From the NCBI GenBank assembly GCA_027050775.1, contig JALUBH010000027.1, positions 124,001 to 188,000 on the forward strand: DNA of 64,000 bases, read 5' to 3'. This DNA is from Campylobacteraceae bacterium. GTDB lineage: Bacteria; Campylobacterota; Campylobacteria; Campylobacterales; Sulfurospirillaceae. Every line of letters starts with the position of its first letter. Positions within the stretch are counted from its first letter, which is position 1. Shown here piece by piece: positions 10,551 through 40,351 of the stretch. A program made the position numbers and the translations under genes. The notes under the pieces were generated by a model, which saw nothing but the letters and a program-made list of their open reading frames with translations, was not told the origin of the DNA and ran no database searches.

Positions 10551-10566
10551 TTATCTGCCTTTTTTT

Positions 10567-10733
10567 ATTTTACTGTCATCTTTTATAGAGGCAAAGCCTC
10601 TATAAAATTCACACTCTACTAAAGCTTAGGCTTGCGCCTAGAAGCTTATTATTTTACTGTCATCTTGTCAAGGAAGTGAATTCCTTGACAATTCACGCTC
10701 TACTGAAGCTAGACCTTGCGGTCAGAAGCTATT
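10567..10733 (-). repeat. Tandem pair of hairpin leader repeats in front of mreB
   Basis: Two imperfect copies of about 84 bp (10651-10733 distal, 10567-10650 proximal, read on the minus strand) fill the clpX-mreB gap. Each has a first hairpin with a GCAA loop (stem GACC/GGTC in one, AGGC/GCCT in the other), then GCTTTAGTAGAG-like and GAATT elements. A second hairpin follows: 12 bp with a TTT loop at 10581-10607 in the proximal copy, and an 11-bp stem of different sequence in the distal copy. Both end in GATGACAGTAAAAT. The stems differ but remain paired, whereas the loops and linkers are conserved. Confidence 0.85.
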
Positions 10734-18853: not shown

Positions 18854-18858
18854 AAAAC

Positions 18859-18972
18859 TGACATTATGCACTTTTTTCTAGAAAAGTCCTACTTTTTGTG
18901 GCTTTAGGGGGTTGTAGGGACTTGAGCCCCTGCCACTATAACGAGCTTTGCTCATTATAGTGCATAAGGTCA
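18859..18972. repeat. Orphan hairpin repeat between convergent genes, terminator-like
   Basis: The gap between the convergent EamA and bcp genes holds a 13-bp inverted repeat (TGACATTATGCAC at 18859-18871 and its partner at 18960-18972, one mismatch). This encloses a hairpin at 18934-18962 (CACTATAA...TTATAGTG with inner GAGC-TTT-GCTC). On the plus strand GGCTTTAG at 18900-18907, the GCTTTGC apex and the trailing AAGGTCAG match the leader repeats seen before mreB and the msr regulator. No gene starts after it, so here it could only serve as a two-way terminator or be a remnant. Confidence 0.6.
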
Positions 18973-18976
18973 GAAA

Positions 18977-19456: not shown

Positions 19457-19548
19457 TTTTAATTAAATTTTTCAAAACTATTTCTTAGAGGCAAATCCTT
19501 CCGCAGGGCTAAAGCCTCACGAAATAGTTTTGAAAAATTTAATTAAAA
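19457..19548 (-). repeat. 28-bp perfect inverted repeat in the bcp leader
   Basis: The arms at 19457-19484 and 19521-19548 are perfectly complementary over 28 bp, with a 36-nt interior. The interior, read toward bcp, contains GAGGC...GCCTC, GCTTTAG and AAGGATTT, resembling the core of the leader repeats before mreB. The structure ends at the bcp ribosome site AAGGA, 12 nt upstream of the start. It could be a diverged, enlarged member of the same family or an independent palindromic element. Confidence 0.85.
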
Positions 19549-19606
19549 TTATATCCATAAATGATAAATATTTGCCAATCTTCATCAAATCTCCATAAAC
19601 AACCTC

Positions 19607-20597: not shown

Positions 20598-20713
20598 CTC
20601 GTGCAATACTGCGAGGAATTTTAAACGGCTGACGCTCCTATATAGAGCGTCAGCTCGTGCTTTAGTCGCGAGGAATTTTTTAGGGGCTTTGCCCCTAAAA
20701 AAGGGGACAGTTA
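20598..20713 (+). repeat. Tandem pair of hairpin leader repeats in front of the msr response regulator
   Basis: Copy 1 starts at 20598 (CTCGTGCAATACTGCGAGGAATTTT), and copy 2 starts at 20654 with CTCGTGCTTTAGTCGCGAGGAATTTT-like sequence. Between them is a 10-bp hairpin (20628-20637 with 20645-20654). Copy 2 continues into a perfect 12-bp hairpin with a TTT loop (20676-20687 with 20691-20702) and then GGGGACAG, the ribosome site of the regulator ATG at 20715. The core GCTTTAGT, GAATT, GCTTTGC apex and GACAG tail are shared with the mreB leader. Confidence 0.85.
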
Positions 20714-20714
20714 A

Positions 20715-21398
20715 ATGAAAAAAAAGATCCTGATAGTAGAAGATGAAGAGAGCATAGTTGAGTTTATAAAAAATCGACTGCAGAGCAATCTTTATGATAC
20801 ACATATCGCATATGATGGAAGAGAGGCTATCTCCAAAATAGCCTCAAATTCATATGACTTAATCACGCTTGATGTCATGCTTCCGCATGTAGATGGATTT
20901 GAGATATGCAAAACCATAAGAAAAAAATCAAAAAAGTGCTTAATTGTTATGATTAGCGCACTTGATACGATGGAATTTAAGACAAAAGGGTATGATTGCG
21001 GGATAGATGACTATATCGCAAAGCCATTTTCTGCTAGAGAGTTGGCTATTAAAATCAAATCTTTGTTAAAAAGAAAAGAGGAACTCGCTTGCCTTAAGGA
21101 TAAATCTCTTTGCGATATAATTCTCAAAGAAGAGGCAAAAGAGGTACTTGTAGATGGCTTTAAGATAGAGTTTACACCAAGTGAATATACAATCTTATCT
21201 GTATTGATAAACAATAAAAACAGAGTCTTTTCAAGAGCAGATTTGGCTCAAATCATATATGACAATTATCTAGGAGAGATAGATGAGCAGGGCATAAACA
21301 GCCATATTTACCATATAAGAGAAAAGGTCAAAGAGTATTATGATAAAGAGATTATAAAAACCGTAAGAGGGATAGGATACAAGATATATGAAAATTAA
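20715..21398 (+). CDS. OmpR-family response regulator
   Basis: The 227-aa regulator has a receiver domain (1 to about 118) with acidic pocket EDEE, phospho-acceptor Asp53 in LDVMLPHVDGFE and conserved Lys in AKPF. A winged-helix DNA-binding domain follows (about 125-225; FTPSEYTILSVLINN, KTVRGIGYKIY). It is translated with the histidine kinase (11-nt overlap), which itself overlaps the MsrAB gene. The system therefore very likely controls periplasmic methionine sulfoxide repair. Its start lies directly behind the hairpin leader repeats. Confidence 0.95.
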   Translation: MKKKILIVEDEESIVEFIKNRLQSNLYDTHIAYDGREAISKIASNSYDLITLDVMLPHVDGFEICKTIRKKSKKCLIVMISALDTMEFKTKGYDCGIDDYIAKPFSARELAIKIKSLLKRKEELACLKDKSLCDIILKEEAKEVLVDGFKIEFTPSEYTILSVLINNKNRVFSRADLAQIIYDNYLGEIDEQGINSHIYHIREKVKEYYDKEIIKTVRGIGYKIYEN

Positions 21399-38975: not shown

Positions 38976-40183
38976 TTTTCCAAACTCTTTAAATATTTTT
39001 TTACATTTCTTGCTGCTTGCCTGATTCTGTTTTCATTTTCTATCAAGGCAATTCTAACATAATTGTCACCATGTTCTCCAAAGCCTATACCGGGGCTTAC
39101 TGCGAGCTTCGCCTCTGTTAAAAGCTGCTTTGAAAACTCCATACTGCCTAGATGAGAAGCAACTTTTGGTATTTTTGCCCATATAAACATAGTAGCTTTT
39201 GGCTTTGCCATATCCCAGCCTGCATTTTTAAAACTCTCTACCAATACATCTCTTCTTTTTTTGTATATCTCAATAATTCCGTCCACACACTCTTGTGGAC
39301 CGTCAAGTGCCACAGTAGAAGCTACCTGTATAGGGGTGAACATACCATAATCAAACCAAGATTTTATCTTTTGAAGCGCACCTATAAGCTTCGGATTTCC
39401 GACAAAAAAACCAACTCTCCATCCAGCCATATTGTAACTTTTTGATAGGGTTGTACTCTCTACAGCCACATCTTTTGCGCCCTCTATCTCAAAAATAGAT
39501 GGTGTTTTATATCCATCATAAGTTATATCCGCATATGCAATATCACTTATGATATAAAATCTCTCCTCTTTGGCATAAGCCACCAATCTTTCATAAAAAG
39601 ATTTCTCAACCGTAACTGTTGTCGGATTGTGAGGGAAATTGACTACAACAAACTTTGGTTTTGGAGCTGAATCTCTAAAAGATTTTTTCAACTTAAAGAA
39701 AAACTTTTCAACATCAAGCTCAAAATTTTCGTTAAAATCCAAACCCATCTTGTGTACATTTCCACCTGCTAGAATGAAAGCTTGAGAATGTATAGGATAT
39801 GCAGGATCAGGCACTATAGCTACATCTCCTGGATTTGTGATAGCTTGGGCAAGATGCACATAGCCCTCTTTACTACCTAGTGTTGCGACTGCTTCACTAT
39901 CTGCATCCAAATCCACTCCATACCTTCTTTTGTACCAGTTACAAATAGCTAGTCTTAGTTTATATATACCTTTACTTACACTATATCCGTGCGTTTTGTC
40001 TTTATCAACTGATTCTATAAGTTTGTCGATGATATGCTGCGGTGTCCTTCCATCTGGATTTCCCATCGAAAAGTCGATGATATCTTCACCTCTTCGTCTT
40101 GCTTTTAGTTTTATCTCATTGATCTCGGCAAACACATAGTTTGGCAATCTCTCTATCGTATTAAATCTTATCTCATCAAACAT
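38972..40183 (-). CDS. LL-diaminopimelate aminotransferase-type class I aminotransferase
   Basis: The 403-aa PLP enzyme has the PLP lysine Lys248 in STTLSKSYNMAGWRVGFF, substrate-site SMGNPDGRTP and HNPTTVT. In Campylobacterota this gene is annotated as LL-diaminopimelate aminotransferase, which fits dapB nearby. The fold is shared with alanine aminotransferase AlaC, so the substrate is inferred. The ATG sits immediately behind two tandem hairpin repeats, with AAGGAG 7 nt upstream. The same repeat family precedes mreB. Confidence 0.88.
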   Translation of the reverse strand: MFDEIRFNTIERLPNYVFAEINEIKLKARRRGEDIIDFSMGNPDGRTPQHIIDKLIESVDKDKTHGYSVSKGIYKLRLAICNWYKRRYGVDLDADSEAVATLGSKEGYVHLAQAITNPGDVAIVPDPAYPIHSQAFILAGGNVHKMGLDFNENFELDVEKFFFKLKKSFRDSAPKPKFVVVNFPHNPTTVTVEKSFYERLVAYAKEERFYIISDIAYADITYDGYKTPSIFEIEGAKDVAVESTTLSKSYNMAGWRVGFFVGNPKLIGALQKIKSWFDYGMFTPIQVASTVALDGPQECVDGIIEIYKKRRDVLVESFKNAGWDMAKPKATMFIWAKIPKVASHLGSMEFSKQLLTEAKLAVSPGIGFGEHGDNYVRIALIENENRIRQAARNVKKYLKSLEK

Positions 40184-40190
40184 TTTATTT

Positions 40191-40351
40191 CTCCTTTAAG
40201 AGGAGCAGAGCCCCTCTTAAATTCCCCTCACTAAAGCTTCGCCTTTGGCGAGAAGAACTTTCATCTTATTTCTCACTCAAGAGGAGCAGAGCCCCTCTTA
40301 AATTCCCCTTGACTATTGCTTCGCCTTTGGCGAGAAGAACTTTCATCTTAT
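40191..40351 (-). repeat. Tandem pair of hairpin leader repeats in front of the aminotransferase
   Basis: Two copies of about 82 bp, nearly identical and head to tail, fill the 177-nt gap. Each reads GAAATAAGATGAAAG, CTTCTCGCC-AAA-GGCGAAGC (first hairpin), then GCTTTAGTGAGGGGAATTT in the proximal copy or GCAATAGTCAAGGGGAATTT in the distal copy. The second hairpin is AAGAGGGG-CTCTG-CTCCTCTT (40198-40218 in the proximal copy). The proximal copy runs into AAAGGAG, the ribosome site of the downstream gene; in the distal copy this position has decayed to GAGTGAG. Confidence 0.88.

Follow-up and report, generated by a model that had tools for sequence, protein, structure and literature searches.

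A dispersed double-hairpin repeat anchored at start codons in Sulfurospirillaceae

We describe a dispersed repeat, ~82 nucleotides (nt) long and built of two covarying hairpins, that almost always lies directly before a start codon and precedes dozens of unrelated genes in a Campylobacteraceae bacterium and its relatives. Toward the gene, each unit consists of hairpin 1 (a 4- to 5-bp stem with a loop that is often GCAA or GACA), a core (GCTTTAGT...GAATT), hairpin 2 (11 to 12 bp, capped by GGC-TTT-GCC or GGAA-TTCAC-TTCC), and lastly a tail that runs up to the start codon. From sequence comparisons, we lean slightly toward reading it as a tandemly multiplying leader element that would act in RNA as a portable translation-start module.

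Structure and copies of the unit

An earlier note on a 64,000-nt stretch of the source genome, referred to here as the window, had proposed a dispersed family of hairpin leaders under structural selection, with six copies in the window. A covariance model (CM) built from 29 units returned five full units there, with folding z-scores of −1.8 to −4.7. These are listed below together with a truncated unit and a small open reading frame (mini-ORF).

10650..10733, minus strand: distal copy (unit 1) in the mreB array, of type A; its core is GTAGAGCGTGAATT and its tail, AAGATGACAGTAAAATA, has no Shine-Dalgarno (SD) sequence; hairpin 1 at ~10711-10724 (GACC-GCAA-GGTC), hairpin 2 at ~10665-10691; CM score 93.0 bits, folding z-score −3.3
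10566..10649, minus strand: proximal copy (unit 2) in the mreB array, also of type A; hairpin 1 at ~10627-10640 (AGGC-GCAA-GCCT), hairpin 2 at ~10581-10607; CM score 93.4 bits, folding z-score −4.6, also identified by sequence
20598..20634, plus strand: truncated unit before the response regulator gene, with a short hairpin 1 and core GCAATACTGCGAGGAATTTT; identified by sequence, folding z-score −4.5
20635..20717, plus strand: full unit before the response regulator gene, type B; core GTCGCGAGGAATTT, tail AAAAAAGGGGACAGTTAA with SD; CM score 80.3 bits, also identified by context
40262..40342, minus strand: distal copy in the LL-DAP aminotransferase array, resembling type C; CM score 43.7 bits
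40266..40346, minus strand: mini-ORF of the distal LL-DAP aminotransferase unit, MKVLLAKGEAIVKGNLRGALLLLSEK followed by a stop; identified by translation and an ORF survey
40180..40260, minus strand: proximal copy in the LL-DAP aminotransferase array, of type C; its core is GTGAGGGGAATT and its tail, AAAGGAGAAATAAA, includes an SD; CM score 64.5 bits, folding z-score −4.7

Both sequence and the CM place copies before mreB, the response regulator gene (the msr regulator of the earlier note), and the LL-DAP aminotransferase gene, as had been claimed. The mreB gene retains its own SD (AAAAAAGGCAGATAAATG) downstream of unit 2. The truncated unit is merged into a long palindrome, which provides hairpin 1 of the following unit, and that unit has its 3′ end exactly at the response regulator ATG (20715). 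The proximal LL-DAP aminotransferase unit ends on the ATG of its gene (40183). The mini-ORF of the distal unit begins at an upstream ATG, remains open across both hairpins, and stops one base before the initial ATG of the next unit. The mreB pair shows the stem replacement exactly as first described: GACC-GCAA-GGTC in one copy becomes AGGC-GCAA-GCCT in the other with the loop kept, and the second stems differ in sequence and are still paired over 11 to 12 bp.

Membership was narrower than the proposed six copies in two respects. The orphan at 18859-18972 is not matched by the CM and instead belongs to a separate foldback repeat of ~120 bp (18856-18975; inverted ends CTGACATTATGCACT...AGTGCATAAGGTCAG; folding z-score −5.9), a MITE-like element with 22 matches in the genome, the long ones 77 to 92% identical. 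The palindrome before bcp (ttaattaaatttttcaaaactatttc...gaaatagttttgaaaaatttaattaa, 19461-19550), taken earlier for a diverged member, is likewise unmatched and stands outside the double-hairpin family.

Beyond the window, the family is larger and more ordered than first described, and its genome copy number and stem covariation bear out the idea of a dispersed leader family under structural selection. The search for further copies that had been proposed returned at least 97 matches in the source genome at an E value of ≤0.1, and 61 arrays were analyzed. Ten congeners hold at least 21 to 116 copies each at an E value of ≤0.001, and at least one copy at an E value of ≤1e-6 occurs in 35 of the 44 genomes of a family-wide survey, and none of the family's five genera lacks members; one genus, g3, has just 0 to 3 copies per genome. 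All of these counts are lower bounds drawn from 150 scored candidates per genome (103 in the 44-genome survey). The core pattern gave 43 genome matches, compared with 4 for a reversed control.

The covariation that the earlier note had proposed to check lies far above that of column shuffles. Across both stems, 90.1% of stem cells are paired versus 67.3% in the shuffles, with 118 double-sided stem changes versus 42.6, and structures slid along the alignment pair at 40 to 64%, all worse than the proposed stems. This evidence is strong but not independent, since the alignment was made from these same, related copies. The left and right ends of the unit are unrelated in the alignments, with no terminal inverted repeats. 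No T run of the kind expected of an intrinsic terminator or attenuator follows hairpin 2; its place is taken by an A-rich tail with an SD or GATGACA. Pseudoknot pairing between the core and the hairpin 2 loop and pairing of the core with the tail were both rejected, as no supporting covariation was seen (judged by eye on A1). At one locus (L202; L028, L029), half-units carrying hairpin 1 and GCTTTAGT and lacking hairpin 2 are interspersed with full units; this alternation suggests modular exchange.

A search of the window against Rfam gave no family at threshold, in agreement with the earlier note, which knew of no named family with such a layout. The best weak match, freshwater-2 (RF02980), scored 24.4 bits against a threshold of 49.9 and was rejected, the aligned part being a generic hairpin followed by SD-ATG. 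Rp_sR47 at locus L304 was also below threshold. Literature searches, with most subscription papers outside their scope, returned no description of the double-hairpin family.

Position at start codons and the SD rule

The earlier note did not mention that the 3′ end of the unit sits exactly on the start codon, that the tail holds an SD, that a mini-ORF can be coupled to the gene, or that presence varies between species. In four genomes, 186 of 204 arrays have a same-strand gene start within 45 nt of the array 3′ end; in the mirror test at the 5′ end, this holds for 29 of 189. In many operons, the array occupies the entire gap, from within a few bases of the upstream stop to the downstream ATG.

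The tail varies with this position. Units at a start codon carry an SD-like tail (GGGGACA or GGAGACA), whereas units set back from the gene have GATGACA or GAAAACA. Among the last units of arrays, 144 have both SD and ATG, 13 SD only, 9 ATG only, and 53 neither (Fisher test, P = 7e-29), and SD and ATG are also associated in internal units (P = 1.6e-6); both P values overstate the evidence because copies are related by descent. Nine abutting units have no matched SD; one of them adjoins the 16S rRNA 5′ end, and two lie beside opposite-strand tRNA genes. The ATG is no start codon at these three sites, which favors selection for the SD rather than a mere preference for the target, though the cases are few. 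Three units (L196, L197, and L453) point into opposite-strand tRNA genes and end beside the tRNA with ATGG or GTGG; L453 is the counterpart of the L197 site in genome G006.

A second motif tracks the tail. The AGGA of the core and the tail SD (GGRGA), which flank hairpin 2, are present or absent together across several core sequences (counts of 210/17/17/108). Shared ancestry within subfamilies could explain this co-occurrence, as could selection to avoid stray binding of ribosomes or a protein, for instance CsrA, that recognizes two sites.

Coupled mini-ORFs and a proposed start module

A subset of the family contains a leader ORF whose stop overlaps or adjoins the downstream start. These mini-ORFs, confined to a minority of units, are 26 to 28 codons long; each starts at an upstream ATG, crosses both hairpins, and stops on the downstream start (ATGA, TAATG, and similar). 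An ATG often opens type B and type C units; in tandem arrays, it is the one that ends the previous unit. In two genomes, with one fixed rule picking both ATGs, the ATG frame is open in 44 of 54 units, compared with 6 and 20 for the two alternative frames; the exact ATGA overlap is present in 34 of the 54. In G006, a holdout genome that had no part in forming the idea, 11 of 16 units are open versus 3 and 7 in the other frames, and 9 have exact overlaps; in G021, neither testable unit showed the mini-ORF.

ATG-to-ATG distances are mostly 80 or 83 nt (both 2 mod 3), and the left and right halves combine in three phase arrangements (34, 6, and 3 units) with the same total. Since three reading phases are in use, what is conserved is openness ending on the next start and not the peptide. 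The peptides are wholly different, as illustrated by MKHTEVLLRALVARNFCGIHFRKKGTIV before argF in congener G005 and MKYSMQSISFSERNLTWALLKSKETII before a response regulator gene in the source genome. A conserved leader peptide was ruled out because frames vary among copies and type A units have a stop within hairpin 1. Coupling is found in 43 of 95 abutting arrays versus 0 of 18 set-back arrays and is enriched in tight operons without being exclusive to them (24/41, 14/42, and, where there is no same-strand upstream gene, 5/12). In one argF array (L183; G000:C20), three units form a single continuous ORF of ~82 codons over 81-bp repeats, followed by the overlap with the argF start.

We propose that the unit would be transcribed with its gene and would fold as hairpin 1, a single-stranded core, and hairpin 2, with the tail reaching the start codon; in type B and type C units, the tail would also provide the SD. 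In these two types, a ribosome could start at the tail SD or at the unit's own ATG. Starting at the ATG would give a mini-cistron, clearest in tight operons, whose translation would melt both hairpins and allow reinitiation at the gene through the stop-start overlap. Type A units, which stand further from the gene and lack an SD, would have been inserted upstream of a native SD that was kept, with loss of the SD-like sequence. Units would spread by some copying mechanism and would be retained where translation of the next gene was preserved or reset. Parts of this scheme have precedent: among coupled genes, ATGA (−4 nt) is described as the most frequent spacing, and in an established model the upstream ribosome unfolds the RNA (PMC12548453).

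If this reading is right, ~100 genes per genome would receive their translation start from a single portable repeat that parallels, in nature, the bicistronic leaders built by engineers, and selection would act on the open frame and the stop-start overlap and not on the peptide. Congeners with filled and empty versions of the same site would make effects on translation and operon coupling measurable gene by gene. Several observations count against the module: the mini-ORF is limited to a minority of units and did not appear in G021, coupling is not exclusive to tight operons, many sites have no unit in a congener and hence none of them individually requires one, and the units in RNase P RNA and at the 16S 5′ end described below cannot act on translation.

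History of the sites and alternative readings

In congener G005, 26 of the 61 arrays have a counterpart before the same gene. The sites before argF, with a unit in six genomes, and dnaK, with a unit in three genomes of genus g3, are common to more than one genus, and the mreB site probably is as well. Among named relatives, MreB is closest in Sulfurospirillum sp. UBA12182 (91%) and in Sulfurospirillaceae bacterium STD2_19 (89%), which makes the source organism a probable member of the Sulfurospirillaceae. The former has a diverged double hairpin before mreB, recognized by eye, and the latter has a clpX-mreB gap of 12 nt with no unit. In a complete congener, G009, many sites are empty, with an ordinary SD and genes that often overlap (hemB-argF, AGGGAGGAAAGACTCATGAGACAT). 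Sites that are filled in some species and empty in G009 and STD2_19 imply gain or clean loss of units.

Clusters are head-to-tail direct tandems with a period of mostly 76 to 91 nt, and no alternating inverted pairs of the BIME type were found among them. Median similarity is 0.82 between adjacent tandem units, 0.73 between orthologous sites, and 0.67 between random sites; tandem units being most alike, arrays must grow or homogenize locally.

The unit also occurs outside mRNA. At least four genomes from genera g3 and g4 (L497, L499, L501, and L502) have an RNase P RNA whose P12 loop contains a full, sense-oriented copy; the RNase P model RF00010 scores 254 to 261 bits there, and the unit is inside the inserted part; four further loci (L495, L496, L498, and L500) share the same RNase P sequence context. 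In G021, a unit adjoins the 16S rRNA 5′ end (L470, 98-179, minus strand; TTTAATGGAGAGTTTGATCC). The P12 and 16S copies each end on ATGG. The unit is thus tolerated as an RNA domain beyond mRNA leaders and can live as a domain within a ribozyme, and these copies shift weight toward an insertion element, alongside or instead of a pure translation device.

The leading rival is a selfish, non-autonomous mobile hairpin, of the REP/REPIN type or a MITE derived from IS200/IS605, that inserts beside an ATG and persists where the gene start is recreated, the SDs and open frames being survivors of selection against damage. We consider it possible though unlikely. It would account for the wide range of copy number among congeners, the greater likeness of neighboring than of orthologous units, the clean empty sites, and the copies in RNase P helix P12 and at the 16S 5′ end, and the genome encodes five Y1 (IS200/RAYT-type) transposases (L031 to L035). 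However, no model match lies at any of the five Y1 loci with their flanks of ~1.5 kb, and permutation gave no sign of target-site duplication (P of 0.1 to 0.8). Nearly all copies at starts are in the sense orientation, and this, together with the sites common to more than one genus, exceeds what tolerance alone needs. In single cases, such as argF in G005, a copy of the gene start at the left edge of the unit looks convincing, but such duplication failed the same permutation test and was rejected. One Y1 locus, L033, has strong hairpins of its own nearby (GGGCCCGCGTAGCGGGC).

A bolder version of the start module, which we hold as doubtfully as the selfish hairpin, is that dozens of housekeeping genes have had their native starts replaced by a self-spreading and complete start kit (hairpin, SD, start-codon junction, and a mini-cistron open in the needed frame), in some cases by tandem copies, and that this kit has also colonized RNase P RNA and the 16S 5′ flank. 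Such a kit would be a mobile element adapted to make host genes depend on it for translation.

The paired AGGA and SD motifs raise a third reading, in which core AGGA and tail GGRGA at the base of hairpin 2 form a candidate two-site target and the unit is a CsrA-controlled leader, by analogy with the translated 27-amino-acid ORF before E. coli iraD. The genome carries csrA, and iraD ORF27 is arranged in a closely similar way, its stop lying on the start codon and its SD being a CsrA site (PMC5574718). We regard this as improbable: the co-occurrence of the motifs may reflect only subfamily descent or selection for the tail SD, the GGA motifs lie outside hairpin loops, and the downstream genes are broadly housekeeping with no obvious regulon. 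Slightly less probable still are hairpins that stabilize or process mRNA between cistrons with no part in initiation; strong hairpins do occupy many operon gene gaps, but this leaves the SD rule, the exact start-codon anchoring, and the open mini-ORFs unexplained. A metabolite riboswitch or single-regulon leader would fit the leader position and covarying stems but is very unlikely, given tandem copies before dozens of unrelated genes, the lack of any Rfam family at threshold, and no large conserved core of the ligand-binding type.

ERIC, BOX, and NEMIS/Correia elements are MITE-like, short non-autonomous repeats that form RNA hairpins near genes; unlike them, the units have no terminal inverted repeats or target duplication and hold a fixed place and orientation at start codons. 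Rfam freshwater-2 resembles the unit in having a hairpin followed by an SD and start codon. REP, BIME, and REPIN sequences with their RAYT transposases (PMC3116915, PMC2817692), including GTAG-tagged REPs (PMC3733652), are similarly dispersed, high-copy, extragenic, and often clustered hairpins. The present units differ in their ~82-nt length, two dissimilar hairpins, single orientation to the gene, and start-codon anchoring with an SD, and they show neither alternating inverted pairs nor a RAYT beside copies. The TAACTGA repeats of Beggiatoaceae are also tandem and lie no more than several nt upstream of start codons, before functionally unrelated genes that include ribosomal protein genes, and a posttranscriptional role has been proposed for them; they are heptamers, and the abstract describes no two-hairpin unit or mini-cistron (PMC4679880). 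E. coli iraD ORF27 is a single-gene precedent for a coupled leader ORF: it is 27 codons long with a stop overlapping the iraD start, and its translation opens the structure over the ribosome-binding site of the gene (PMC5574718). It differs in serving one gene without a repeat family, and CsrA control is shown in iraD and only a candidate for the units. We know of no described family that matches the two-hairpin, start-anchored layout, and we class the unit as a dispersed non-autonomous hairpin repeat that is unusual for its adaptation to the translation start.
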